Shown here in pieces: positions 19,964 to 37,756 of a DNA stretch of 48,795 nucleotides. How positions within the stretch are numbered: position 1 is the first letter of the stretch; every line of letters starts with the position of its first letter. Made by a program: the position numbers and the translations under genes. The stretch spans positions 1-48,795 of the forward strand of contig JAJYWQ010000032.1 in assembly GCA_021791415.1 (NCBI GenBank). Direction: 5' to 3'. The notes under the pieces are model-generated. The model saw only the letters and a list, made by a program, of their open reading frames with translations. It did not search any database and was not told the DNA's origin. Source of the stretch: a bacterium. Its GTDB lineage: Bacteria > Chloroflexota > Dormibacteria > Aeolococcales > Bog-877.

Positions 19964-22156
19964 TCAGCGTCCGTCCCCCCCAGTGGCCATGGCCGCCGGA
20001 GCCGCGGCGGCCGCCTCCCGAGGTGGGCGGTAGCGGCACTTGGGGTATCCGGAGCAGGAGACGAAGGGGCCGAACCGGCCCATGCGACGCACCAGGGGCT
20101 GGCCGCACTCGGGGCAGCTCCCCCCGGTGGGCTCCGGCGCGGGCCGGGCCGGCCGGCTGGACCCCGCCTCCGGCCGGATGTAGCGGCACTTGGGGTACCC
20201 GGAGCAGCCCACGAACGGGCCCCGGCGGCCACTCCGCCTCACCAGGGGGCGGCCGCACTCCGGGCAGGCCTCGCCCACCTCCTCGGCGGCGGCTCGCTCC
20301 TCCCGCCCCTGGATGTAGTCGCACTCCGGGTACCGGCTGCAGCCCACGAACTCGCCGAAGCGCCCCGTCCGGACCACCAGCTCGGCTCCGCAGCGGGGAC
20401 AGTCACCGCCCGCGGGCGGTGCCTTCACCCGGACCCGGGGCATGTCCTCCTGGGCCCTCTCCAGAACTTTGGCGAAGGGCTCGTACCAGGACCGCACCAC
20501 CGGGATCCAGCCCTCGTCCCCAGCCTCGATGGCATCCAGCCGCCGCTCGAGCTCGGCGGTGAAGCCCAGGTCGACGACGTCGGGGAACTGGGTGGTGAGC
20601 GCCTCGTTGACCGCCACCCCGAGGGGGGTGGGGTGAAGCCGTCGCTCCACCTGGCGGACGTAACCCCGGGTCTGGATCAGCTCCACGGTGGGAGCGTAGG
20701 TGCTGGGCCGCCCAATCCCGCGCTCCTCCAGCTCGCGGACCAGCGTCGCCTCCGTGAAGCGGGGCGGAGGCTGGCTGAAGTGCTGTTCCGGGAGGAGCTC
20801 CAGCAGGCGGGCGAGATCGCCCTCCGCGAGGAGCGGCAGGAGCTGGTCCTCCCTCTCCTCGGCGGCCGCCACCTTGGTGAAGCCGTCGAAGGTGAGGCGA
20901 CTACCGGTGGCACGGAACTGATGGCCCGCCGCCTCCAGCTCACACCTCGTGTTCTCGAACTCAGCAGGGCTCATCTGGCTGGCCACGAACCGGCGCCAGA
21001 TGAGCCGGTAGAGGCGGAGCTGGTCGGAGCTCAGGTGGTCGGCCACCGCCTCCGGAGTGCGCGCCACGCTGGTGGGCCTGATCGCCTCGTGGGCGTCCTG
21101 GCTGGCCACCGGTCCCGCCTCCCGGCGGCGCGCCGTGCCCTTGGTCCCGACGTAGCGGGGCCCGAAGGCGCTAGCCACGTGGTCGTGGGCCTCGTCCCTG
21201 GCCAGGTCGCTGACGCGGACCGAGTCGGTGCGCATGTAGGTGATGAGGCCCACCGGCCCGGCCGAGCCCAGCTCCACGCCCTCATATAGCTGCTGGGCCA
21301 TCCGCATGGTCTTCGTGGGGCTGAACCGCAGCTGCGCCGAGGCCTCCTGCTGCAGGGTGCTGGTGGTGTGCGGCTGAGGCGGGTTGCGGCGCTGGCGACG
21401 CGTCTCGACCGAGACCACCCTGAAGGGCCGGCCCTCAACCTGCGCCATCACCTTGCGGGCCGCTTGCTCATCAGGCAGCGCCGACCCTCCCTCATCGTCC
21501 GCGGCCCGGCCCCTCCTCCCCTTGGCCGGAGGGTGATAGCGCGCGGAGAAGTCCTCTCTAGAGCCGGTCTGCAGCCGGGCATCCAGGGTCCAGCTCTCCA
21601 CCGGCTTGAAGGCCTCGATCTCCAGCTCCCGATCGCAGACGAGGCGGACCGCCACCGACTGCACCCGGCCCGCGGAGAGTCCCTTGCGGACCTTGCGCCA
21701 GAGGAGCGGGCTGAGCTTGTACCCCAGGAGGCGGTCGATGGAGCGACGCGCCTGGTAGGCGTCGACCAGGTTGCGGTCGATCTCGCGTGGCACCTTCAGG
21801 GCGGCCTCGACAGCCGGACGGGTGACCTCGCGGAAGACGATCCGCTCCGGCTGCTTCAGAGAAAGCTGGTTGGCGATGTGCCAGGCGATCGCCTCCCCCT
21901 CGCGATCCGGGTCCGCCGCCAGCAGGACCCGGCCGGCCTTGCGGGCGGCCGACTTCAGCTCCTGGAGCTGCTTCTCCTTCCCCTTGATCACCGTGTAGTC
22001 AGGGGTGAAGCCGTCGTCCACGTCGATCCCCAACTTGGACCGGGGGAGGTCGACGACGTGGCCCATAGAGGCCTTGACCTCGTAGTCCCTGCCGAGGAAC
22101 TTGCTCAAGGTCCGGGCCTTGCTGGGTGATTCGACGATGATGAGGTTGCTGGGCAT
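19964..22156 (-). CDS. topA: DNA topoisomerase I
   Basis: Type IA enzyme that relaxes negative supercoils. 730 residues: TOPRIM domain at the N terminus (LIIVESPSKA, metal site DPDREGE at 82-88), active-site Tyr307 in LITYMRTDSVRVS, GIGRPSTYAP, then three C-terminal zinc ribbons, each starting CPxCG and ending GCSRYPEC or CSGYPKC. ATG at 22156 chosen because the family begins MPSNLIIVESPSK; the frame opens 15 codons earlier. The second and third ribbons are near copies of each other. Confidence 0.96.
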   Translation of the reverse strand: MPSNLIIVESPSKARTLSKFLGRDYEVKASMGHVVDLPRSKLGIDVDDGFTPDYTVIKGKEKQLQELKSAARKAGRVLLAADPDREGEAIAWHIANQLSLKQPERIVFREVTRPAVEAALKVPREIDRNLVDAYQARRSIDRLLGYKLSPLLWRKVRKGLSAGRVQSVAVRLVCDRELEIEAFKPVESWTLDARLQTGSREDFSARYHPPAKGRRGRAADDEGGSALPDEQAARKVMAQVEGRPFRVVSVETRRQRRNPPQPHTTSTLQQEASAQLRFSPTKTMRMAQQLYEGVELGSAGPVGLITYMRTDSVRVSDLARDEAHDHVASAFGPRYVGTKGTARRREAGPVASQDAHEAIRPTSVARTPEAVADHLSSDQLRLYRLIWRRFVASQMSPAEFENTRCELEAAGHQFRATGSRLTFDGFTKVAAAEEREDQLLPLLAEGDLARLLELLPEQHFSQPPPRFTEATLVRELEERGIGRPSTYAPTVELIQTRGYVRQVERRLHPTPLGVAVNEALTTQFPDVVDLGFTAELERRLDAIEAGDEGWIPVVRSWYEPFAKVLERAQEDMPRVRVKAPPAGGDCPRCGAELVVRTGRFGEFVGCSRYPECDYIQGREERAAAEEVGEACPECGRPLVRRSGRRGPFVGCSGYPKCRYIRPEAGSSRPARPAPEPTGGSCPECGQPLVRRMGRFGPFVSCSGYPKCRYRPPREAAAAAPAAMATGGDGR

Positions 22157-22252
22157 GAACGGTCTCAACTCCGAGGCCTTGGGGCCAGGCGATGATAACA
22201 ACAGCGTTCCACACCCCCACCCAGTTCAAGCAGCCGAAGGGGAACCCGCCAC

Positions 22253-22258
22253 TAAACT
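22253..22258 (+). promoter_or_regulatory. Candidate -10 box for the flavoprotein reductase gene
   Basis: TAAACT on the plus strand, followed about 20 bases later by an AGGAGG ribosome site and a TTG start at 22291. It supports the later start over the ATG at 22192. No convincing -35. Confidence 0.4.
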
Positions 22259-22290
22259 GGGTCGGTATCCCGTTCCAGGAGGCTCGGCGC

Positions 22291-23076
22291 TTGCCCGTCC
22301 TTGTCGACGACCGCTACCAGCAGGGGCTCATCGTGGCCCGCCACGACTTCACCAAGGACCTCTGGTCCATCCGCATCCGCCCCGCCGACCCCTTCCCTTT
22401 CAGGGCCGGCCAGTACGCCACCCTGGGCGTCGAGCTGGAGGACCGGGTGCTGGAACGGCCCTACTCCATAGTCTCGGCGCCGGAGGAGCCGGAGCTGGAG
22501 CTCTTCATCGAGCTCATCCCCGGCGGTGCGCTCACCCCCCACCTCCACCGGCTGGGAGTGGGGCAGACGGTGTGGCTTCGCCGGCGCCCCAAGGGGCTGT
22601 TCCTCCGGCAGCCGCCGGCAGCCGACCGGGTGCATCTCTTCTGCGCCACGGTGACCGGTGTCGCGCCCTTCGCCAGCTTCCTGCGCCAGCTTGTCCGCCG
22701 CCCACCGGGCGAAGGCGGGGCCGTGCCGAGGATCCTCCTGATCCAGGGAGCCAGCCACGCCGACGAGTTCGGCTACCTGGAGGAGATGGAGCAGCTCAGC
22801 CGGGAGCTCCCAGGCTTCCGCTACGTGCCCACCGTCAGCCGGCCCTGGGAAGAGCCGGGATGGGAGGGCGAGGTGGGCCGGGCCGAGGACGTCCTGCGCA
22901 AGCACGCCGACGACTTCGGCGTGGCGCCCGGCCAGGGGATGGTGTACTTGTGCGGTCACCCGGGGATGATCGCCGGCGGCCGGGCGCTCATGCGCCGGCG
23001 TGGACTTCAGGACAAGGAGATCCTGGAGGAGCAGTACTGGCCCGAGGGAAAGGAGCCCACCGGCTCCGAAACCTGA
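22291..23076 (+). CDS. Ferredoxin-NADP+ reductase-like flavoprotein
   Basis: FAD-dependent reductase of the ferredoxin-NADP reductase fold, 261 residues from the TTG at 22291. RPYSIVSAP near residue 56 is the FAD-binding motif; TVTGVAPFASFLR is the NADP phosphate-binding loop (usual GTGVAPF, here VTGVAPF); VYLCGHPGMI lies near the C terminus. The TTG is preceded by AGGAGG at eight bases, while the earlier ATG at 22192 would add 33 residues with no homology. Function is electron transfer between NADPH and a ferredoxin or flavodoxin; IspG and IspH need such electrons, an inference only. Confidence 0.85.
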   Translation: MPVLVDDRYQQGLIVARHDFTKDLWSIRIRPADPFPFRAGQYATLGVELEDRVLERPYSIVSAPEEPELELFIELIPGGALTPHLHRLGVGQTVWLRRRPKGLFLRQPPAADRVHLFCATVTGVAPFASFLRQLVRRPPGEGGAVPRILLIQGASHADEFGYLEEMEQLSRELPGFRYVPTVSRPWEEPGWEGEVGRAEDVLRKHADDFGVAPGQGMVYLCGHPGMIAGGRALMRRRGLQDKEILEEQYWPEGKEPTGSET

Positions 23077-23159: not shown

Positions 23160-24692
23160 GTGAAGGAGCTGTCGCTCCCCGAGCCGCTCGCCTCCCCCGT
23201 ACTCGGCGAGAGGGCAAGCGCCCACTCGCGCGCGCGGGCGCTCCTGGCCACCCTCCCCTTCGTCATCTACGTTGGCCTGCGGGTGCCGTCGCTGATGGAG
23301 CCCCACTGGTACAGCGACGAGGCGGGCTACGCCACCACTGCCTGGTTCTCCATCCACGGACTCGCCCTCTACCAGACCATCTGGAACAACAAGCCCCCCC
23401 TCCTCTTCTGGATTTACGACCTGGCCCTCTGGGCCTTCGGGCCCAGCGAGTTCGGCCTCCACCTGCTGTCCACCCTCGCCGGGCTCGTGGCCCTCGGGGC
23501 GCTCTGGTGGGCTCTCCAGCGGCGGGCCAACGGCTGGCGGCGCCTGGGGCCGTTGCTGGCCGCGGCCGTGCTGCTGGGCATCCCCTTCCTGGGGGGGGAT
23601 CTGGCCCTCCCGGAGAACTTCCTCATCGCCCCCGAGGCGCTGGGGATGGTGCTGGTCCTCGAGGGGTTGGAGCGACGGCAGGCGGGCTGGATGGTGGGAG
23701 CCGGGCTGGTGCTGGCCACGGCCGTCCTGATCCAGCAGACGGCACTGGCGGCGGTGGGCGCGGCCGTCCTCCTGGTCGCGGTCCGGCCGGAGCCGGGCCG
23801 GGGGAGCCGGATCGCCGCCCTGCTGCTGGCCTGCTCGGTCGGGGTGGGAGCGGGGCTGGCCCCGTACCTGGCCGCGGCCGGCCCCGGCCGGGTGTGGTAC
23901 TTCCTGGTCGGCTCGTACCGCGGGTACACCTCCGAGTCCCTTCCCCTGACCGCGCTGACCCTCTTCCCCCGGGCCCTGGCGGGCCTGCTGCTGCTGGTGG
24001 GGGCCGTGGGGCGGCGGCGCGACCCTCCCCTGGCCCAGCTGGCCGCGGTCTGGCTGGTCGCCGACCTATTGGCCTACCTCCTCCCCAACCGCGCCTACCC
24101 CCACTTCCTGTTGCCGGCGGTCGTCCCTCTGTGCCTTGTCCTGTCCGGACTGCACCGTCCCCAGTGGCTGAAGGCCCCGAGGCTCCTCAGGTTGGCGCTG
24201 CCGGCTTCGGCCGCCCTCTGCATCGGCACCTGGGCCACCCTCTTCGCCATGAACGCCTCCGGCCTCTTCAGCGGGCTCCTCACCCTGGAGTACATCCCGC
24301 TCTCGCTGGGACGGGCGGTCGGAACCGTCACCGGCACCCAGTACCTGTCCGCCTTCGGCCTGGACACCTTGGGGGAGTCTGAGGCGGTGGCCTTCATCCG
24401 CAGCCACCACCTGGAGGGGGCCTCGGCCGTGGTGTGGTCGGCCAACGCCTGGCCCTACCTGCTGGCGGGGCTGCGCCCCATCCTCCCGACTCCGGCCATC
24501 TACATGGACGACTTCTGGCTGGGGGAGCGGGCCCTCGTCAACCGGGTCCGAAGTGCCCTGCCAGAGCTTGTGGTGGTGGACGGCAGCGGGCTCCCCAGGG
24601 CCCTCCACCACTTCCTGGACAGCTCCTACAGGGTGGTGGAGCGGGGAGCCGGGGGCTCGGCGGTCTGGCTCCGGGAGAACGTCCCGGGCTAG
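23160..24692 (+). CDS. GT39-like membrane glycosyltransferase (ArnT/PMT fold)
   Basis: A 510-residue polytopic protein with about 11-12 hydrophobic helices. The first outer loop carries the GT-C catalytic signature WYSDEAGYAT (Asp53, Glu54) and the WNNKPPLLFWIYDLALWAFG stretch typical of ArnT/PMT-like enzymes that transfer sugars from polyprenyl-phosphate donors to proteins or lipids outside the membrane. C-terminal soluble part has no motif I recognise. The GTG at 23160 is uncertain; AAGGAG lies just after it. Its TAG overlaps the convergent stop of the next gene. Confidence 0.82.
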   Translation: MKELSLPEPLASPVLGERASAHSRARALLATLPFVIYVGLRVPSLMEPHWYSDEAGYATTAWFSIHGLALYQTIWNNKPPLLFWIYDLALWAFGPSEFGLHLLSTLAGLVALGALWWALQRRANGWRRLGPLLAAAVLLGIPFLGGDLALPENFLIAPEALGMVLVLEGLERRQAGWMVGAGLVLATAVLIQQTALAAVGAAVLLVAVRPEPGRGSRIAALLLACSVGVGAGLAPYLAAAGPGRVWYFLVGSYRGYTSESLPLTALTLFPRALAGLLLLVGAVGRRRDPPLAQLAAVWLVADLLAYLLPNRAYPHFLLPAVVPLCLVLSGLHRPQWLKAPRLLRLALPASAALCIGTWATLFAMNASGLFSGLLTLEYIPLSLGRAVGTVTGTQYLSAFGLDTLGESEAVAFIRSHHLEGASAVVWSANAWPYLLAGLRPILPTPAIYMDDFWLGERALVNRVRSALPELVVVDGSGLPRALHHFLDSSYRVVERGAGGSAVWLRENVPG

Positions 24693-25831
24693 CGCTTCAG
24701 CCTGGTAGCGAGTGGAGGGGAGATCTGGGCGAACGTCCCGCGCAGCGACTTGACCCAGCGGTTGCCCGGCTGGCGCCAGGCCAGCGGCTCTCCCCCGCTC
24801 AGAGACCGGACCCCGTCAAGTCCCGCGTGGGGCACGGCGAGGACCGTCTGCTCCAGCACCCGGGAGGCGCGCTCCGCCTCCACCTGGTGGTAGGGGAGGA
24901 CGCAGTTGAGAATCACCGAGACTCGCTCCCGGGGGATCCGCAGCTGGTCGCAGATCCGCAGCCAGGCAAGGACCGCGAACACGCCGGGGTTGTCCGGTGT
25001 CCCCACCACCACCATATGGTCGGACCGCTCCAGGATGTCGATCCCACCGTTGTCTAGCCGCCCGCCCTGGTCCACGACCACCAGCTCGGCAGGGTGGGTG
25101 AGCCTCAGGATGATCGCCCCGACGGCAGCCGGCGAGACGGAGTCCGCCAGCTCCGGGCGTGAGGGCGCGGGGAGAACCGACACCCCACTCGGGTGGCGGG
25201 GCAGACGGTCGAAGATCTCCTCTTCGGGACCGACCGAGGACAGCTCGACCCAGGTGGGGGTCTGGGGCGGGAGGTTGAACGCCAAAAGGGCGCTGCCGAA
25301 GCGGGGGACGTTGTCCACCAGCGCCACCCGGTAGGCATCCGCAGCCACCACCGCGAGGTTGGCCGCCAGCATCGTCCTGCCCGTGCCTCCCCGGGGTCCG
25401 CACACCACCCAGAGCTCACCGCGCCCCTTGGCCGGTCGCTCGGGCGCCACCGAGGCGTCGAGCCGGGAACGGACCAGGTCCGAGAGCGCCTTGGCAGAGG
25501 CCGCTCGGGGCAGCTTCTCGCTGGCTCCGGCGTCCAGCGCCGCCGCCACCAGGGGAGAGTTGGCATCCGCGGCCACCAGGATGATCGGGATCGCGGCGTG
25601 GAGGATGCTGGCCCGGATCTGGCGAACCAGGGGGACCAGCGCCGGGTCCTCCCCAAAGACCTCGATGACCGCCGCGTCCGCGGGGTTGGCATCGAGCCCG
25701 GCGGCGGCGGCGGCGGTCGATTCAAAGCCGACCAGCTCCATCCCGTTCTCGGCCAGCGCCTGGCGGATGACCTCGGACCTCGAAGCCTGACGGGCGATCA
25801 CCAGCACCTTGCGGGGGAGCGTGTCAGGCAT
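24689..25831 (-). CDS. CpaE/MinD-like protein with degenerate ATPase and receiver sites
   Basis: 380 residues: an N-terminal pseudo-receiver domain (about 7-125) and a ParA/MinD-type domain (about 137-365), the layout of CpaE, which places Tad pili and similar machines. The sites are altered. The receiver phosphoacceptor position is Glu57 (AVIEVFG) rather than Asp. The deviant Walker A, normally KGGxGKT-like, reads PRGGTGRT (146-153), both lysines replaced by Arg147 and Arg152. The next strand's DxD-type motif is VDNVPRFG, with Val175 in the second Asp position. Walker B Asp254 (VVVDQGG) remains. No tad genes are nearby. Likely a non-hydrolysing scaffold or regulator; expression and frame look intact. 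Confidence 0.78.
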   Translation of the reverse strand: MPDTLPRKVLVIARQASRSEVIRQALAENGMELVGFESTAAAAAGLDANPADAAVIEVFGEDPALVPLVRQIRASILHAAIPIILVAADANSPLVAAALDAGASEKLPRAASAKALSDLVRSRLDASVAPERPAKGRGELWVVCGPRGGTGRTMLAANLAVVAADAYRVALVDNVPRFGSALLAFNLPPQTPTWVELSSVGPEEEIFDRLPRHPSGVSVLPAPSRPELADSVSPAAVGAIILRLTHPAELVVVDQGGRLDNGGIDILERSDHMVVVGTPDNPGVFAVLAWLRICDQLRIPRERVSVILNCVLPYHQVEAERASRVLEQTVLAVPHAGLDGVRSLSGGEPLAWRQPGNRWVKSLRGTFAQISPPLATRLKR

Positions 25832-25886
25832 GCCCCAAGTCTATTGCCTCCAGGGGTGAGAGATCAGCGGGAGGAGGAAGTCGGCG

Positions 25887-26351
25887 TCACTTGGCGGGGG
25901 CGCGCCCTCGAAGCCCCCGGCGCCGGCTCGGCGCCACCGGAGCCTCGACCGGCTCGTCCGCGACCACATCCTCACTCACCGCCACCGCGGCCGCGGGCCT
26001 CGCTGGGCCCTCCCGGCGCTCCCTGATCCGGGCCTGCTTGCCCACCTTCCCCCGGAGGTAGTAGAGCTTGGCGCGGTGCACCACGCCATGCCGCACCACC
26101 TCGATCTTGGCGAGCCGGGGCGAGTGGATGAGGAAGGTGCGCTCAACCCCCACCCCGTGGGCGGTGCGGCGCACGATCACCGACTCCCGGACGCCCCCAC
26201 CCTTCAGCCCGATGACCACGCCCTCGAAAACCTGGACGCGCTCGCGGGTGCCCTCGACCACCTTGGCATGGACCCTCACCGTGTCCCCGGGCCGAAGCTC
26301 CGGTACGTCGGATCTAAGCTGCTCCTCCTCGAGCAGGTCGATGATGTTCAC
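25887..26351 (-). CDS. rplS: 50S ribosomal protein L19 (bL19) with C-terminal extension
   Basis: 154 residues. The first 112 or so are the L19 domain ([10 protein letters not shown]-like [31 protein letters not shown]-like [21 protein letters not shown]). The rest is an Ala/Val/Glu stretch ending in a basic [12 protein letters not shown], absent from most L19. GTG start with GGAGG upstream; overlaps the trmD stop as GTGA. Last gene of rpsP-khpA-rimM-trmD-rplS. Confidence 0.95.
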
Positions 26352-27088
26352 TGCGCACCTCCACCAGCCTCGCCGCCCGTCTGGACCGCGGGTCTCGATT
26401 GCCCTGTAGTCTCCGCCTTGAGGAGCAGGTCCGGGCGGATCCGGGAGGCCCGCTCCAGAGCGGCCCGGCGCCGCCAAGCGGAGATCTTCGCGTGATCGCC
26501 GCTGCGAAGCACTGATGGTACCGAAAGTCCCTCGAAGACTGCCGGCCGCGTGTACTGGGGATACTCGGGAAGCCCCTCCGCGAAACTCTCGTCGAGGGTG
26601 GACTCCGGGTCCCCCAGCGTCCCCGGCAGGTGCCTGGCGACCGCCTCGACCAGGGCCATAGCCGCAAGCTCCCCGCCGGCCAGGACGAAGTCCCCGACCG
26701 AGACCTCCTCCAGGCCGAGGCCTTCCACCACCCGCTGGTCGACCCCCTCGTACCGGCCACAGACCAGCATCAAGGACTCCTCCCGGGCCAGCTCCAGCAC
26801 CAGACCGGCGTCCAGCCGCCTGCCCCCGGCGGACATCAGGATGGAGCGGGCTGGCTGGGAGGCCTGCAGGCTACGCACCGCGGCGAAGAGCGGCTCGGGG
26901 CGCAACACCATCCCCGGGCCTCCCCCGAAGGGGGCGTCGTCCACCTGGCGGCGCGAGCCGAGCCCCCAGTTCCTCAGATCATGAGCCTGCAGCCGGACGA
27001 CCCCAGCTGCCAGCGCTCGGCCCACCACGCCGACTCCCAGCGGGCCGGGGAACACCTCGGGGAAGAGGGTGAGGACGTCAACCCGCAT
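26348..27088 (-). CDS. trmD: tRNA (guanine-N1)-methyltransferase TrmD
   Basis: Methylates G37 of tRNAs read with CNN codons, preventing frameshifts. 246 residues; SPOUT knot motifs [26 protein letters not shown] and the N-terminal [11 protein letters not shown] with [10 protein letters not shown] and [17 protein letters not shown]. Overlaps rimM by 11 bases. Confidence 0.96.
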
Positions 27089-27593
27089 CGTCCCACGGCT
27101 CCAGGAAGGTGCCCGCGACTGTGAGTAGCCCGCCGTCGAGGTCCACGTCCAGCACCGCGGCCCGGACCGCGGGGACCAGGCGCTCGCCCTCGGGCCCGCT
27201 CACCACCAGGACGTCGTTGGCAGGATAGGGCTGCACGTCGGCAACCACGCCACGCTCGAGGCCCCGCTCGTCGACCACCCGTAGACCCACCAGCTGGAAG
27301 TGGAAGTATTCTCCCTCCGGAAGGTCGCGGACGCTGTCGAGGGGGACCTCCAGATACCCGCCCACCAGCCGCAGGGCCGCGGTCCGGTCTTCCACCCCGC
27401 TCAGCCGGCAGAGCAGGTGGTCGGCGGCGGCGCGGGGCTCCTTGATCACCCGGGGCTCCCCTTCGAGGAAGACCTCGGTGCCGTCGGGGAGGCGGTCCAA
27501 CCCCCCACCCAGGAGCTCCAGGGCCACCTCGCCCCGCAGCCCATGGGCCTTGACCACCCGCGCCACTCGCACCCTCCCTGGGGGATTGGTCAA
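27078..27593 (-). CDS. rimM: 16S rRNA processing protein RimM
   Basis: Helps mature the 30S head around S19. 171 residues: N-terminal RimM barrel (VRVARVVKAHGLRGEVAL) and C-terminal PRC barrel (GLRVVDERGLERGVVADV, NDVLVVSG, RLVPAVRAAVLDVDLDGG). Starts at a TTG that overlaps the khpA stop as TTGA. Confidence 0.94.
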   Translation of the reverse strand: MTNPPGRVRVARVVKAHGLRGEVALELLGGGLDRLPDGTEVFLEGEPRVIKEPRAAADHLLCRLSGVEDRTAALRLVGGYLEVPLDSVRDLPEGEYFHFQLVGLRVVDERGLERGVVADVQPYPANDVLVVSGPEGERLVPAVRAAVLDVDLDGGLLTVAGTFLEPWDDAG

Positions 27594-27829
27594 TCGACGA
27601 CCTCGACCTGGACCCGGTCTCGAGACCGGAGAGAGGCCGACCGAACAACCATCCGGATGGCCTCCACGTTTCGCCCCTGTCGACCGATCACCCGGCCCAG
27701 GTCCTCGGGGGCAGTCCAGATCCGCACCATGTAGTGGCGCCCTTGCCCTTCGATCTCCACGCGCACGTCATCCGGGCGGCTGACCAGCTGCCGGACGATG
27801 TGGCTGACCAGCTCGCGGTAGTCGGGCAC
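27590..27829 (-). CDS. khpA: KH-domain RNA-binding protein KhpA
   Basis: 79-residue single KH domain protein; the GxxG loop is in EDLGRVIGRQGRNVEAIRM. The usual partner KhpB is not in the window. In other bacteria it binds many RNAs and influences cell elongation. GTG start four bases after rpsP. Confidence 0.93.
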   Translation of the reverse strand: MPDYRELVSHIVRQLVSRPDDVRVEIEGQGRHYMVRIWTAPEDLGRVIGRQGRNVEAIRMVVRSASLRSRDRVQVEVVD

Positions 27830-27833
27830 CGGA

Positions 27834-28259
27834 TCAGGCCTCGGTCTCAGCAGCCGTCACCTCTTCGGGCTCGCCCGCGGCCGGACCGCTCTCCGCCTGC
27901 ACCTGCGGACTGTCCGCCTCTTCCGGCTCAGCCCTTTCGGCTGGCGTCTGGGAGGGCGCCGACTCGACCTCGGTCGCGGCGGCCGCGCGCTCCGGACGGG
28001 CACGGCGGGGCTTGGCATCGAGCATCCCCTGCCGCTCGAGAAGCTCCCTCACGGCGTCCGAGGGGCGGGCCCCGGTGGCCATCCAGTATCGGATCCGGTC
28101 GTCCTGCAACTTCACCACCACGGGATCCGGAAGCGGGTCGTAGTACCCCACCATCTCGATGAAGCGCCCGTCCCGCGGAGAGCGGGCATCCGCCACCACC
28201 ACCCGGTAGAAGGGGCGCTTCTTGGCCCCCATCCTCTTCAGCCTGATCTTCACCGCCAT
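27834..28259 (-). CDS. rpsP: 30S ribosomal protein S16 (bS16) with acidic tail
   Basis: 141 residues. The first 80 are S16 ([28 protein letters not shown]). A tail of about 55 residues is rich in Glu and Ala ([11 protein letters not shown] and similar) and strongly acidic, unlike most S16. ATG preceded by GGAGG. Confidence 0.95.
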
Positions 28260-28293
28260 ACTCTGCCTCCTCGCTTAATGCGCTCGACCGCTC

Positions 28294-29661
28294 TCATCCG
28301 CCAATAGCTGGCGTGCGGCCGCGCGGTGTCTTCAACAGCTCTTGGACCAGCCGGCGCCGACCGCCCGCTCCCGAGAGACCCTTCATCATCGACCGCATCT
28401 GCTCGAACCCCTTGATGAGCCGGGACACCTCGGCTGGGGTGGTGCCGCTGCCCCGCGCGATCCGGCGGCGGCGCGAGCTATCGACGAGCTCCGGCTTACG
28501 GCGCTCCTCGGGGGTCATGGAGAGCACGATCGCTTCCAGCCGTCGCAGCTCCGCCTCGCCGGGGAGCGCCGAGCCCTGGGCACGCATCAGCTCCCGCCCG
28601 CCCGGCATCAGCCCCAGGATCGACTCCAACGGCCCTAGGCGACGAAGCTGGCGCAGCTGGGTCACGAAGTCGTCCAGGGTGAGGCGGCCGTCGCGCATAC
28701 GCTCCTGCGCGGAGACCGCCTCCTCTTCACTTATCTGCTCCTGGCTGCGCTCGATCAGGGTGAGCACGTCGCCCATGCCCAGGATCCGGCGCGCCATCCT
28801 CTCCGGGTGGAACGGCTCCAGGTCCCGGGGGCGCTCCCCCACGCCGCAGTACCAGACCCTGAGCCCGATGGCGGCGCGCATGGAGAGGGCGGCACCACCC
28901 CGGGCGTCGCCATCCAGCTTGGTGAGGATGATCCCGTCCACCCCCACCTGCTCCTTGAAGGAGCCGGCGACACGCACCGCCTCCTGCCCCGTCATAGCGT
29001 CCACCACCAGCAGCGAGTGGTGGACGCGGACGGCGGACCGGATCTCAGCCAGCTCGTCCATGAGGGGCTGGTCCAGGTGCAGTCGACCCGAGGTGTCCAC
29101 CAGGACCACGTCGTGGCCCTGACGCCGAGCCCCCTGGACGGCGGAGGCGACCCCGTGGGCCAGTCCCCGGCTCGTCTCCGGTACCAGGACCGGGACCTGG
29201 TGTTCCGCGGCCAGGATCTGCAGCTGATCGACGGCCGCCGAGCGGCGGAGGTCGGCTGCGACCAGCGCGGGCCGGTGCCCCTCCGCTCGTACCAGGAGCG
29301 CCAGCTTCACCGCCGTGGTGGTCTTGCCGGCCCCCTGGAGACCCACCAAGAGGACCACCGTGGGTGGCTCGGGGCTGTAGGAGAGCGCCTGGTCCTCGCC
29401 CCCGAGCAGCTCCACCAGCTCCCCGAAGACCAGCTTGATGACCTGCTGACCCGGGGTCAGGCTCTGCAGGACGTCGGCCCCCACGGCCCGCTCTCGCACC
29501 CGGTCCACGAACTCCCGCGCCACCTTGTAGTTCACATCGGCCTCGAGAAGCGCCAGGCGTACCTCCCGAAGGCCCGCATCCACGTCTTCGGCGTTCAGGC
29601 GCCCCTTGGCGGTGAGATGCTTGAAGGCCACCCCCAGCTTGTCGGTGAGGGTGTCAAACAC
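28294..29661 (-). CDS. ffh: Signal recognition particle protein Ffh (SRP54)
   Basis: GTPase that, with 4.5S RNA, takes signal-peptide-bearing ribosomes to FtsY. 455 residues: N domain, G domain with P-loop GLQGAGKTT at 107-115, VLVDTSGRLH, LTKLDGDARGG, then the M domain with the RNA-binding RRRIARGSGTTPAEVSRLIKGF and a Met-rich end. GTG at 29661 lies inside the end of ylxM (eight-base overlap). The 4.5S RNA gene is not seen in this window. Confidence 0.96.
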   Translation of the reverse strand: MFDTLTDKLGVAFKHLTAKGRLNAEDVDAGLREVRLALLEADVNYKVAREFVDRVRERAVGADVLQSLTPGQQVIKLVFGELVELLGGEDQALSYSPEPPTVVLLVGLQGAGKTTTAVKLALLVRAEGHRPALVAADLRRSAAVDQLQILAAEHQVPVLVPETSRGLAHGVASAVQGARRQGHDVVLVDTSGRLHLDQPLMDELAEIRSAVRVHHSLLVVDAMTGQEAVRVAGSFKEQVGVDGIILTKLDGDARGGAALSMRAAIGLRVWYCGVGERPRDLEPFHPERMARRILGMGDVLTLIERSQEQISEEEAVSAQERMRDGRLTLDDFVTQLRQLRRLGPLESILGLMPGGRELMRAQGSALPGEAELRRLEAIVLSMTPEERRKPELVDSSRRRRIARGSGTTPAEVSRLIKGFEQMRSMMKGLSGAGGRRRLVQELLKTPRGRTPAIGG

Positions 29662-34000: not shown

Positions 34001-34567
34001 TTCCAGCCACTGATCCAGCGAGGCCATCCGTGACGCACTCTCGTCGAGCAGCGCCTGGGTGCCGCGGACCCCGGCCGCCTCCTCGATCAGGTGCCGGCGT
34101 TGGGCCGGTGTGGCCCGGATGATCGCCTCGATGTCGTTCTGGGCGATGATGGCGTACCCCGACTGGGCAAGGCCGGTGGCCTCGAGCAGCCGGTAGACGT
34201 CGCGCAGCCTCACCCGCTCACCATTGCGACGGAACTCACTGCCCCCGTCTCGGAAGACCCTCCGGCTGAGAGAGACCTCCACGTCCTCGACGGGAAGCCT
34301 GCGATCCTCGTTGTCGAAGGTGATCGAGACCTCGGCCATCCCCTGAGGGGCCCGCCTTTCGCCCCCGGCGAAGATCACGTGGTCCAGCCGCTGGCCCCGA
34401 AGCTCGCGGGCGCTGGCCCCTCCCAGCACCAGGCGGATCGCGTCCACCAGGTTGGACTTGCCGCTCCCGTTGGGACCCACGATGGCGGTGATCCCGCCCC
34501 CGAGGTCGAGCTCGGTCGCCGCTGCGAAGCTCTTGAACCCCTGAAGCTGGAGGCGCGTGACCCTCAT
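31064..34567 (-). CDS. smc: Chromosome segregation ATPase SMC
   Basis: 1167-residue condensin subunit: Walker A GPNGSGKSN at 31-39, long coiled coil, hinge around the middle (Gly-rich region near 500-640), second coiled coil, signature LLSGGERALTALALVLA and Walker B FYVFDEVDAALDEAN. Length is typical. ATG overlaps the rnc stop as ATGA. scpA and scpB are not in this window. Confidence 0.96.
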   Translation of the reverse strand: MRVTRLQLQGFKSFAAATELDLGGGITAIVGPNGSGKSNLVDAIRLVLGGASARELRGQRLDHVIFAGGERRAPQGMAEVSITFDNEDRRLPVEDVEVSLSRRVFRDGGSEFRRNGERVRLRDVYRLLEATGLAQSGYAIIAQNDIEAIIRATPAQRRHLIEEAAGVRGTQALLDESASRMASLDQWLEGSGGRLAELWPRIEELRAEAQLAEEASALQDQVRRLRGGLERAAWLEAVTEARRAERQLQGARRALDQARVRESDYALIYRRQRDELELRERLRLEHERAMGELAVSRQRLEGEATRWGERAVQAVRDRAASLRLQREALGDLDQMGPEAPDDQLAGSQDTADRLSALEAEARELEGREAVLRGALSEAEAEAARQKAAQQSALRGIERLESRVELLDARGTRARADLSSLRAEASELEQRVGNDQEALLAASRAQEAAAGRLATEIQAEDAARRNRRSLEAALEEAERAARQAAGELAEAEARAGRRGADGEIAAAVRAAELALASMADVLRPLAPDDAVAVDAALGELAAALLGDEEEARRGLTRRGGAAETVVWSAQPRSGAGVSPPAGCRRLVEAVTGDALAVEVVASHLPRTCLASDREAAAAWLALEPLGRAVLPDGTVLGTGWERTPASGGGAIVRAATLRSLRSERERREERVREAEARREWGVAQHRHREAAVESARAELAAAREEAEALRSRVARGEAALAELGRRIETLDAELSSHKPLVSGALAELASAREEEAAAARAQAAAQELARVTQEELTQILPRLTEVRSQVAVVRSQWVELEARREAGLRLSRELRAQRDRLAARVLAAAQGARAAEAAAAHALGRLWAVREELGRLVRRTVAEAGAVANTASADADPLARLADLERRRAELNSEVRAAEDSVSRLEAQLADREAAAARLRPELEPAPEEQATRLEDPGRTAQELQRLERRLAQLGPVNALAPSQLADLLDRTEDLRRVHEDVEAARRDLSLVAAAVGRLTGARYRSTLGRVATEFESVWRELFGGGRARLVAVPGTGSELPGVDLEVQPRGKRVIPLGLLSGGERALTALALVLATQQVSPSPFYVFDEVDAALDEANVGSFVRLLRQRARTTQFVLVTHSLTTMAAADRLYGVTQDGRGASRVLSVRLGADGSPVEERGTPEEAALV

Positions 34568-36279
34568 TCCGGGCCGGAGACCACCACCTTGGTCCGATGG
34601 CGCCCTCCCCGGTGCCCACGCCTGGTGCGGCGGGCCGCCACCGCGCCCTCGGGCCCGGCTGCCAGCTCCGGGGCCGCCGCCTCCGATCCTGGTGCGGAAC
34701 CGGCCCGGCCCGTCTCCGGGGCAGGTGTCGGCGCATCCCGAGCCGCCTGGCCGGAGAGTCCGGCCGCCGCCCTACGGCGTGTCACCCGACGGCTGGGAGC
34801 AGCCCCCGCTGCCTCCGCGGATGCGGTGCCGGCGACCGGCGGTCGGGCAGCCACCGCCTCCACCGCCGAATCGGGAGGGGCGCCGGTGGCCCCCGAGGAC
34901 CTCGACCGGCTCCGGCGACGCCGACGGTGGCCGGCTGCCTCTTCGCCGGAGGCGTCCGGCGTCTGGCCCTCAGCCGGCCCGGGCCGGGCCGCCGCGGCGA
35001 CGTCAGGCTCCGGCTCGGGACGCTCCACCACCGGCCTGGAGCGGGACCGGCGCCTCCTCCCCCGTGGCGAGCTGGTCTCTTCCCCCGCCGCAGGACCGGC
35101 CGCCTCGGATGCTCCCACGGTGGGGCCATCGAGAGAGACGTGCGTCGCCGGGGCCCCGGGGCTGCCGAGCTCAGCCGCGGCCGGCTCCGCCGCCGGGCGG
35201 GAGCGGGACCGACGACGCTTCCGCCGCGGCGGGCCCGCCTCTTCCCCCGAGACCTGGGCCACCGACGGGGACGCTGCGGGATCCGCTCCCCCAGGTGAGA
35301 CCTGGATGCCGAGGGGCTCCGGTGCGCTGGGCTGAGGCGGGGGCACCTCCGGGGTCAGGAGGTCGACCGCCGGGCGGGAGCGGGACCGGCGACGCTTCCG
35401 GCGCGGCAGGTCCGCCTCTTCCCCCGGGACCTGGGCCACCGACGGCGTCGAGGGCAAAGTGGACGGCTCTGCTTGAGGTGGCACGGTCGCCGCGGCCAGA
35501 GAGGCGGCTCCCCGGCCGCGCCGCCGCTTTGGCGCGGGGGCCATGAGCTTCTCCAGGGCAAGGCGTGCTGCCGCCTGCTCGGCCGCCTGCTTGGTGCCCC
35601 CCCGGCCTTCACCCAGCGTCCCATGCCCCTCCACGGAAACCTGGGAGAGGTACTGCCGGCTGCGGGCATCCTGGCCCACGGGCCCGGTGCGGTACTGCGG
35701 AGGCCCGCCGAGCTTCTCCTGAGCCACGGCCTGGAGTCTGCCCTTGAAGTTGGGGTCGGTCCAGGCGCTCAGGTCCCCTATCCGGGACAGGAAGATGCGG
35801 CCGGCGCGGCGGTACCCCTGGTCGAGGAAGGTGGCCCCCACCAGGGCCTCGAAGGCGTTGGCATGCAGAGAGGTGAGCCGCCGGGCACCGGACTTCGCCG
35901 CGCCCTTGCCGAGGCGAAGGGTCTCCCCCAGCCTCAGCTCTTCACCCAGGCGGGCCAGGGCCACCGTGCTCACCAGGGAAGAGCGGATCTGGGTGAGCTG
36001 ACCCTCGTCGTATCCCGGGAAGCGCTTGAACAGATACTCGCCGGCCACCAGCTCCAAGACCGCGTCCCCGAGATACTCGAGCCGCTCGTTGTCGCGCCCC
36101 GCCACCCCCCGCTCGTTGATCCACGAGGTGTGGGTCATCGCCTCGCGGAGAAGCTCCCGCTGCTTGAAGCGGAAGCCCAGCCGGGCCTCCAGCTCATCCA
36201 GCCGCCTCTCCGCCTCGGCCTCCAGGGCCGCCAGCTCCTCCGGGGTGGTCCTCCCCCGGCGGCGCCGGACCGACGTCAG
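34564..36279 (-). CDS. rnc: Ribonuclease III with a long Arg-Ser-repeat C-terminal extension; CTG start proposed
   Basis: Cuts double-stranded RNA, including rRNA precursors. 571 residues from the CTG at 36279. RNase III domain about 30-170 with signature [14 protein letters not shown] (64-77) and second acidic motif [18 protein letters not shown]; dsRNA-binding domain about 175-246. Normal RNase III ends there. Here a tail of about 325 residues follows, rich in Ala, Pro, Glu and Gly, with four basic motifs: [11 protein letters not shown] at 293 and 352, [11 protein letters not shown] at 406, [10 protein letters not shown] at 452, and an Arg-rich end. No ATG, GTG or TTG lies in frame between the acpP stop and the conserved N terminus. 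The CTG overlapping that stop (CTGA) matches the NTGA pattern here; a CTG at about codon 16 or 19 after GGAGGAG is the alternative. Overlaps smc as ATGA. Confidence 0.9.
35190..35445. repeat. 79-bp direct repeat inside the RNase III tail
   Basis: Copies at 35190-35268 and 35367-35445 differ at 5 of 79 positions, with a period of 177 bases (59 codons), so reading frame is kept. Each encodes PSVAQV, GEEA and the [11 protein letters not shown] motif. A weaker third relative covers about 35037-35070. Confidence 0.85.
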
Positions 36280-36524
36280 CTGGCCAGGTCCAGGTGCTCC
36301 CTCACGTAGTCCCAGGCCTGTCCCACGGTCTGGATCTTCTCCGCGTCCTCGTCCGGGATCTCCATCCCGTACGCCTCCTCGAAGGCCATGATCAGCTCCA
36401 CCAGGTCCAGCGAGTCCGCGTTCAGGTCCTCCACGAAGTTCGCCTCGGGAGTCACCTGCTCGGCCTCCACGCCGAGCTGCTCCACCACGATCGCCTGGAA
36501 GCCTTCCCACGTCGTGTCTGCCAT
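36276..36524 (-). CDS. acpP: Acyl carrier protein
   Basis: 82-residue acidic carrier of fatty acyl chains. The phosphopantetheine Ser is in the family motif [17 protein letters not shown] at 36524 with AGGGG upstream. Placed between fabD and rnc as in many bacteria, but fabG, fabF and fabH are absent here. Confidence 0.96.
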
Positions 36525-36832
36525 CTCTACCCCTCGTTGGACGGCTGGAAGCCGTCTGGTTGGCCAACTCTGTTGGGTCCGGCAGCTGGGGTGCCGGGTC
36601 CACGTTGTCGCGCTCGGGAATTGTGCCAAGTCGGGCTCGACCCCCGCTGAGCCGCTCCCCGGGCAAGACCGCCAGGTGGTCCGGCGGGCTCGACTCGGCC
36701 GGGGTGGCGTTGGAGGCCTCCTCGCCCTTCCCGGGCCGCACCAGCCGGCGTACGAAGGACTTCACCGGCCGGCTCGCCGGGAGCGGATCGCTGGCCGGAT
36801 CTTGGGCCCCAAGCTGCTGGCCATTGTATGGG
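36525..36832 (-). other. 308-base gap between fabD and acpP, possible small or decayed ORF
   Basis: The minus-strand frame from a GTG at 36765 reads [20 protein letters not shown] and about 20 further residues with almost only G or C in third positions, as in real genes here, then loses that bias near 36640 and runs without a stop into acpP. It may be a fragment of a former gene or chance. Nearer acpP the sequence is less GC-rich; a promoter there is possible but I cannot place one. Confidence 0.3.
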
Positions 36833-37756
36833 TCACGGCAGCATCCCCTCGGCGACCTCGGCAGCTCGCTGGGGGGAGTCGACCTGGACCACATCTGGCG
36901 CCTCCAGCACCCTCTTGATCAGCGGCCCCAGGGTGGCCCCGGCACCGCACTCCAGGAACCGCAGCGCCCCGGCCGCCTCGAGGGCCCGGACGGTGGCTGT
37001 CCACAGGACCGGGCTCTGCAGCTGGACTTCGAGTCCGCGGCGGATCTCCACGGCGCTGCTCACCACCCGGCCCAGTGCCCCCACACCCACCGGAAAGGAG
37101 GGCTCGGCGATCTCGGTCTCGGCGATGGCCGGCGCGAACAGGGCGGCCGGGCCAGCCATGAGGGGTGAGTGGAAGGCGCCGCCGACCTGGAGCGGAACCA
37201 CCCGGCGGGCACCGGCCTCCCGTGCCCTCCGCGACACCTCCTCCACCCCGGCTGCCGAACCTGAGACCACCTGCTGCTGAGGGCTGTTGTCGTTGGCCAG
37301 GACGCACAGGGATCCGGACGCCGAGACCTCGGCGCAGATCGACTCCAGCACCTGGGGCGCCAATCCCAGGACGGCCGCCATGGTGCCTGGAGGAGCGCCC
37401 GCCATGGCCCGCGCCCGGCGGATGACAAGCCTCATCCCCGCCTCCGGGGCGATCGCCCCCGCAGCCACCAGCGCACAGTACTCCCCAAGGCTGTGGCCGG
37501 CGGCGAAGCTCGGCACCAGCCCCCCCGCCGAGAGCAGCCGGAAGATGGCGACCCCGGTGTAGAAGAGCGCGGGCTGGGCCGCTTCGGTCTGGCGCAGGTC
37601 CTCCGCACCCGCGTCGAGGAGGAGCCAGCGCAGCGGCACCCCCTCGGCTTCGGCGACCTCGATGAGGTCGAGGGAGCACCCCCTCCCGACGAACTCCCTC
37701 CCCATCCCGGGCGCCTGTGCCCCTTGGCCGGGAAACACCAGGGCGTCGCCCTTCAT
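36833..37756 (-). CDS. fabD: Malonyl-CoA:ACP transacylase
   Basis: Loads malonyl groups onto ACP for fatty acid synthesis. 307 residues: VFPGQGAQAPGMG at the N terminus, nucleophile in GHSLGEYCALVAAG, GAFHSPLM with the catalytic His, and a QLQSPVLW ending region. ATG at 37756 chosen; a GTG at 37771 would add five residues. The ATG follows a run of nine G. Confidence 0.95.
   Translation of the reverse strand: MKGDALVFPGQGAQAPGMGREFVGRGCSLDLIEVAEAEGVPLRWLLLDAGAEDLRQTEAAQPALFYTGVAIFRLLSAGGLVPSFAAGHSLGEYCALVAAGAIAPEAGMRLVIRRARAMAGAPPGTMAAVLGLAPQVLESICAEVSASGSLCVLANDNSPQQQVVSGSAAGVEEVSRRAREAGARRVVPLQVGGAFHSPLMAGPAALFAPAIAETEIAEPSFPVGVGALGRVVSSAVEIRRGLEVQLQSPVLWTATVRALEAAGALRFLECGAGATLGPLIKRVLEAPDVVQVDSPQRAAEVAEGMLP

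Follow-up and report, generated by a model that had tools for sequence, protein, structure and literature searches.

A CpaE/TadZ-like protein with an arginine P-loop, encoded between rplS and topA in a family of Dormibacterota

The CpaEx protein and its pocket motifs

The window analysed here, the whole 48,795-nucleotide stretch of contig JAJYWQ010000032.1 (assembly GCA_021791415.1), carries between rplS and topA a gene for a CpaE/TadZ-like two-domain protein that we label CpaEx (Table 1). CpaEx is related to proteins that position pili and the division site in bacterial cells. The usual description of ParA/MinD proteins is of switches that depend on two lysines and a catalytic aspartate. All three residues are replaced in CpaEx, and the replacement is frozen across a bacterial family, alongside a canonical paralog in the same genome, which makes it a natural experiment on this fold without its switch.

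The substitutions were located by alignment to the canonical CpaE that the genome also encodes, whose reference motifs are LSGKGGSGKS, VDLDLQFG, VVVDTASQLSEAA and VVLMDVNM. R147 and R152 fall on the two P-loop lysines, V175 on the second Asp of the DxD motif, and E57 (within AAVIE57VF) on the phospho-acceptor Asp. In place of the deviant Walker A signature KGGxGK[ST], all 17 orthologs described below have RGG[TV]GRT, and in place of DxD they have DNV; the Walker B residue Asp254 is kept in every one. A preliminary description of the window had reported the altered P-loop (PRGGTGRT), the valine, the remaining Walker B Asp and an intact reading frame, all of which we confirm. It had also listed Glu57 as a replacement of the receiver Asp; this is correct for the window copy, but it is not a fixed trait. 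The phospho-acceptor Asp is not conserved in the CpaEx family, position 57 being E in 13, D in 1 and A in 2 of 16 aligned rows, and Glu57 lies outside the fixed motif set.

By sequence and by fold, CpaEx has the CpaE/TadZ layout of a receiver-like domain (about 128 residues) followed by a MinD/ParA-fold domain, although the MinD half is modelled with low confidence. Family models match weakly: CbiA, Response_reg and RHH_1 of Pfam each remain under the curated cut-off, and the top NCBIfam model, TIGR03815 (Ssd/CpaE_hom_Actino), scores 47.7 bits, where the cut-off is 154.45. Both TIGR03815 and the archaeal MinD model TIGR01969 match all 16 members of the CpaEx alignment at 1e-5 or better. Among solved structures, the best sequence match is the ParA-family ATPase 3ea0 (E 1.5e-10 with CpaEx alone, 2.1e-15 with the family profile). 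When the AlphaFold model was searched with Foldseek, rank 3 was the two-domain protein 3fkq, which we take to be the published TadZ structure of Eubacterium rectale (E 9.0e-08 over 387 columns; template modelling (TM) score 0.40 on the query, root-mean-square deviation (rmsd) 9.6). Further Foldseek matches were 3ea0 (E 1.0e-06, TM 0.64 on the target) and archaeal MinD 1hyq (1.3e-06). 3fkq was not among the matches listed for a solved-structure search with the canonical CpaE. The matches listed by VIA-align were all of receiver type (rows at about residues 4–130, Z up to 18.0), the remainder being barely tested, so that the assignment of the MinD half rests on Foldseek and on sequence matches.

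Table 1. Features of the CpaEx locus (window coordinates)
Feature	Position	Strand	Basis and remarks
CpaEx, CpaE/TadZ-like two-domain protein, 380 aa	24689..25831	-	Intact open reading frame, ATG start; weak family-model matches; 3ea0 match
Receiver-like N-terminal domain, residues 1-128	25448..25831	-	AlphaFold receiver fold; phospho-acceptor position E57 = 25661-25663
Altered P-loop G145-PRGGTGR-T153, R147 and R152 at both lysine places	25373..25399	-	Arg/Arg in 17/17 orthologs
VDNVPRFG, residues 172-179, Val175 at second Asp of DxD	25295..25318	-	Invariant in 17/17 orthologs
Walker B region VVVD254QGGRLDNGG, residues 251-263	25043..25081	-	Invariant in 17/17 orthologs
rplS (ribosomal protein L19), upstream co-directional neighbour	25887..26477	-	PF01245, E 4.5e-45; neighbour conserved
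topA, conserved flank on the other side of CpaEx	19964..22201	-	Synteny in family; name by sequence reading
FAD/NAD-binding oxidoreductase, between topA and CpaEx	22192..23076	+	PF00175, PF00970
PMT_2 glycosyltransferase-like gene, between CpaEx and oxidoreductase	23160..24692	+	Match at this place in same-genus loci only

Conservation and selection

Orthologs were sought in 61 genomes, the relatives being metagenome-assembled. A close ortholog (E 2.9e-102 or better) is present in 17 of the 18 genomes from the same Dormibacterota family. The one genome without it, G002 (84% complete), gave no match to rplS either, so the contig carrying CpaEx may simply be missing there. All 17 orthologs contain CGPRGG[TV]GRT, VDNVPRFG and VVVDQGGRLDNGG, and the frame is open over the motif region in every case; one ortholog (G014), cut by a contig end, was left out of the 16-row conservation alignment. 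The alternative raised in the preliminary description, that relatives keep the lysines and the window copy is an isolated mutant, is contradicted by the presence of Arg/Arg/Val in each ortholog; as all 17 agree, both an isolated mutant and an assembly error are ruled out as the source of the motif changes. More generally, gene decay, lack of expression or an assembly artefact has negligible probability as the explanation of CpaEx: only the altered motifs speak for it, and the open frames and a dN/dS of 0.06–0.14 speak against it.

The constancy lies at the level of the residue. R147 is encoded by four different Arg codons among the 17 orthologs, R152 by three (AGG 7, CGG 7, CGC 3) and V175 by three. 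AGG is one base away from the lysine codon AAG, and lysine occurs at R152 in none of the 17 orthologs despite the AGG codon in seven.

Across the 16 rows, 40 of the 44 pocket-motif columns are invariant, compared with 74 of 198 elsewhere in the ATPase domain (114 of 242 for the whole domain) and 10 of 125 in the receiver part (residues 1–125). The Fisher p of 4e-11 for motifs versus rest is descriptive only, as the motif limits were set after viewing the alignment. The ATPase domain has nine invariant arginines, four of which (147, 152, 177, 258) lie in the pocket motifs, and a single invariant lysine, K361. Pairwise dN/dS between the window copy and its relatives, with figures for 6 of the 10 loci compared (83–97% identical), was 0.061–0.138 for the whole protein, 0.037–0.074 for the ATPase domain and 0.069–0.290 for the receiver part; genes from the same stretch gave 0.040–0.132 (whole Ffh) and 0.077–0.204 (TopA). 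The ATPase domain of CpaEx is thus about as constrained as Ffh, with the pocket motifs as its most conserved part, and across the 17 orthologs strong purifying selection acts on the altered P-loop and DxD motifs.

GC-driven drift from lysine to arginine can be ruled out as the whole cause, as other P-loop proteins in this window of 71% GC keep their lysine: SMC, which has a K/(K+R) of only 0.03, Ffh, FtsY and HslU. The same is true of the canonical CpaE and of five other ParA/Mrp/ArsA-type proteins of the genome (types assigned by sequence reading). In addition, a change from Asp to Val is not expected from GC pressure. The choice of arginine over other replacements may nevertheless have been favoured by it.

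Genomic location

CpaEx and rplS share a strand, with 55 nt between the end of rplS and the CpaEx start codon. At the other end, the CpaEx stop lies in a 4-nt overlap with the convergent glycosyltransferase-like gene. rplS and/or topA were found near each of the 17 orthologs. Among 13 flanking loci (L038–L050), rplS precedes CpaEx in 12 and topA follows it in 12, the two gaps being contig ends. On long contigs the order is smc-ftsY-ylxM-ffh-rpsP-rimM-trmD-rplS-CpaEx-(oxidoreductase, other strand)-topA-hslV-hslU, where names other than the Pfam-matched ones were given by sequence reading. The oxidoreductase lies beyond CpaEx in 12 of the 13 loci, and the 13th contig ends before that point; no oxidoreductase match was present between CpaEx and topA in two other loci, L022 and L023. 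In other families of the class, frames of at least 90 aa downstream of rplS (25 loci from 24 genomes, with only 21 nt of downstream DNA at one locus and 542 and 849 nt at two others) gave no match to the CpaEx profile; by sequence reading, and with no family search made, the genes there resemble rnhB, yraN and yifB. CpaEx was found here in one Dormibacterota family only.

CpaEx is encoded in this rplS-topA interval and not in a Tad pilus locus. With the CpaB, CpaE and CpaF proteins of the genome as the only queries (tblastn, 1e-8), neither the window nor any of the relatives' 13 flanking loci gave a CpaB or CpaF match, and the sole hit in the window was that of CpaE to CpaEx; to this extent the earlier statement that no pilus genes lie nearby holds. 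A promoter and terminator scan of positions 24400–28400 found neither, which is little informative given shuffle means of 0.1 and 0.8.

Other CpaE-like proteins of the genome and the class

The preliminary description had proposed looking for a second CpaE, and there is one. The canonical CpaE (SGKGGSGKS, VDLD) is encoded on another contig (C7) in a Tad locus, between genes for RcpC/CpaB (PF16976) and T2SSE/CpaF (PF00437). It is the best other match to CpaEx in the genome, and a canonical CpaE was also seen in 14 of the 17 genomes that carry CpaEx.

A second Tad-like locus on contig C61 (L168, 1197-9062) includes SAF/CpaB and T2SSE/CpaF genes, other frames being Tad-like by sequence reading. 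It encodes two further CpaE-like proteins, C61a and C61b, and these have lost both P-loop lysines as well. C61a has the P-loop GPGGGSGVT and matches CbiA (40 bits) and, below the cut-off, TIGR03815 (56.8 bits); C61b has GARGGVGAS and matches TIGR03815 (34.8 bits) and the KGGVGR-variant family NF047398 (30.5 bits), both below cut-off. Pairwise BLASTP between these two and CpaEx is not significant (E 0.13 and 0.029). Orthologs of C61a range from GPGGGSGVT to GPPGAPGRT and have lysine at neither place in any of the 14 rows (of 15) that could be read, while those of C61b include GARGGVGAS, GATGGCGTS, GGKGGVGRS and GGRGGSGRT. Unlike in CpaEx, the motifs vary between genera and the second Asp is mostly kept, in 12 of 14 readable C61a rows and 13 of 13 readable C61b rows. 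CpaE-like proteins of this family thus commonly lack the lysines, and CpaEx is set apart by its frozen pocket, the lost second Asp and its place outside a Tad locus.

This comparison bears on the interpretation given in the preliminary description, that CpaEx is a pseudoenzyme with a kept structural job, its fold retained as a scaffold around a dead pocket. Shared changes at three catalytic positions, in an intact frame with low dN/dS, are what such a protein would have, and purifying selection on the P-loop and DxD changes is real. A dead pocket would be expected to drift, however, and variation is indeed seen in the P-loops of the Tad-locus proteins without lysines, with seven different nine-residue forms in the 14 readable C61a rows (a contrast uncorrected for the greater overall divergence of C61a and C61b). 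In CpaEx, invariant columns are more frequent in the pocket than in the remainder of the domain, which speaks for a functioning site. A purely structural role is therefore doubtful, and too weak a description for a protein whose pocket is its most conserved part. Nor is the pseudoenzyme status established, as lysine loss is in itself no proof of inactivity (see below).

For a wider view, 118 CpaE-like frames of the class were assembled by removing duplicates from 138, drawn from a part of the genome-search matches. The P-loop is readable in 116 of the 118, and Arg occurs at both places in none outside CpaEx. In a quick tree of 113 domains (five frames were too short), computed with the motif columns left out, a branch with an SH-aLRT value of 100 separates CpaEx from the other domains, and its stem measures 1.79 changes per column. 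A DNA pattern for the Arg/Arg P-loop, which required the leading Pro and the Thr, matched 15 of 400 genomes of the phylum: 11 of the 12 sampled genomes of the family, and four in which the translated frames are unrelated or spurious. As a control, the pattern was reversed, and this version matched in 7 genomes. The proposal that Arg/Arg is unique to CpaEx is weakened by C61b, where 4 of 13 readable orthologs (14 rows) have GGRGGxGR[ST] or similar.

Partial changes of the same motifs were noted elsewhere in the class. A separate lineage from another family (loci L162, L165, L166) has PKGGSGRT together with VDALPYNH, a parallel loss of a P-loop lysine to arginine and of the second Asp of DxD. 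Intact P-loop lysines with Ser at the second Asp (VDLSLQFG, LDCSLQFG) occur in frames such as L026 63+, L031 2+, L032 2+, L037 2328-, L141 2247+ and L143 1626-, among others, and Gln at the signature lysine (LSGQGGSGKS) with Ser at the second Asp in L133 2695- and L146 2632-.

Comparison with known proteins and interpretation

CpaEx resembles the CpaE/TadZ proteins of Tad (type IVc) pilus systems in its domain order, and replacement of either or both lysines has reported precedents there. CpaE with KGGVGSS has been described, as has, in pathogenic Ca. Liberibacter, Arg or His at the place of the signature lysine (PMC8513845). TadZ of E. rectale is reported to be an intrinsic ATPase although both conserved lysines are lost, the signature lysine being made up for by one from a neighbouring helix, and the K52A and K57A variants of MSMEG_3743 keep ATPase activity (PMC10482377). 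McdA, a ParA/MinD-family protein that positions carboxysomes, likewise has no signature lysine, and its ATPase activity is unusually high, above that of classic ParA proteins (PMC6328274); it differs from CpaEx in having Ser and not Arg at that place, in its strong activity and in its partner. The Chlorobium tepidum protein 3ea0 also has no second lysine (P-loop KGGDGGS), but it keeps the first and its solved chain (245 aa) has no receiver domain. The top NCBIfam model represents Ssd, an actinobacterial CpaE homolog. The available part of the Rv3660c paper (PMC3095998) does not contain the term ‘Walker’. A search of open-licence literature for CpaE together with Dormibacterota, in that spelling, found no publication. 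Relatives without the same lysines being known, lysine loss in CpaEx is not strange. What is unusual, and distinguishes it from CpaE/TadZ, is the frozen Arg/Arg/Val combination within near-invariant pocket motifs, and the fixed location in a ribosomal operon between rplS and topA with no Tad locus.

The P-loop alone is not enough to call a MinD relative dead, given two further relatives without lysines in this genome and the reported activity of TadZ, which has lost both. The main rival explanation is that CpaEx still is an ATPase, in which contact with the phosphates is made by an arginine or some other residue, and that it goes through the same cycle as an ordinary CpaE. We consider this possible, if on the unlikely side. 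TadZ, the MSMEG_3743 variants and McdA are precedents; 3fkq ranks third in the Foldseek search (though at the rmsd and TM score given above), the pocket is highly conserved and Asp254 is kept. On the other hand, all 17 orthologs have Val175 at a position where the lysine-less Tad-locus relatives mostly keep Asp, and lysine is scarce in the ATPase domain, K361 being the only invariant one.

In the tree, CpaEx is a single tight group that carries the whole motif set; its location is fixed, strong purifying selection is focused on the pocket motifs, and a separate canonical CpaE lies in a Tad locus. That the altered pocket has been kept unchanged across the family suggests that it still does a job. 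We favour, with moderate confidence, a CpaE/TadZ-type paralog of MinD fold whose pocket was remodelled and then frozen, and which would hold a ligand without cycling. Both P-loop lysines would have changed to Arg and the second Asp of DxD to Val on the stem of the family, the gene staying in the rplS-topA interval while the pocket was frozen. The arginine pocket may hold a nucleotide or another phosphorylated ligand, and the held ligand might stabilise a dimer or a partner face. The second Asp of DxD activates water in MinD, and because this residue is Val175 in CpaEx, the hydrolysis switch of MinD/ParA proteins is probably absent. A pocket too strictly conserved for a dead site, invariant arginines and the loss of the water-activating Asp are together best explained by a ligand held without hydrolysis. 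The receiver-like domain would be a fast-evolving docking module rather than a phosphorylation switch.

Several points weigh against this non-cycling, ligand-holding interpretation. ATP hydrolysis is reported for relatives that lack the lysines, which leaves Val175 as the main argument for ‘non-cycling’. The Arg/Arg pairs among the C61b orthologs mean that this combination may be neutral, or a variant that is still active. The predicted local distance difference test (pLDDT) score of the AlphaFold model is below 50 at residues 143–148, the P-loop, so that the model is weak exactly at the pocket; neither a bound ligand nor the arginines lining the pocket can be read from it. Finally, the tree program warned that long branches meet, the CpaEx stem included, and with a midpoint root in addition the branching point of CpaEx is unsure.

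The place in the operon of the signal recognition particle (SRP) and the ribosome is the sole clue to a partner. A more far-reaching idea is that a MinD-fold protein has turned into a non-hydrolysing arginine-pocket receptor for a nucleotide or nucleotide second messenger, integrated into the SRP/ribosome operon in a single bacterial family, and coupling positioning at the cell pole or envelope to translation or secretion without an ATPase cycle. We regard this as speculative and rather improbable.

Additional observation

Elsewhere in the window, at 34564–36894 on the minus strand, lies a frame of 776 aa with an uncertain start codon. Its RNase III and double-stranded RNA-binding domain matches cover only residues 246–450, leaving long unassigned ends on both sides.

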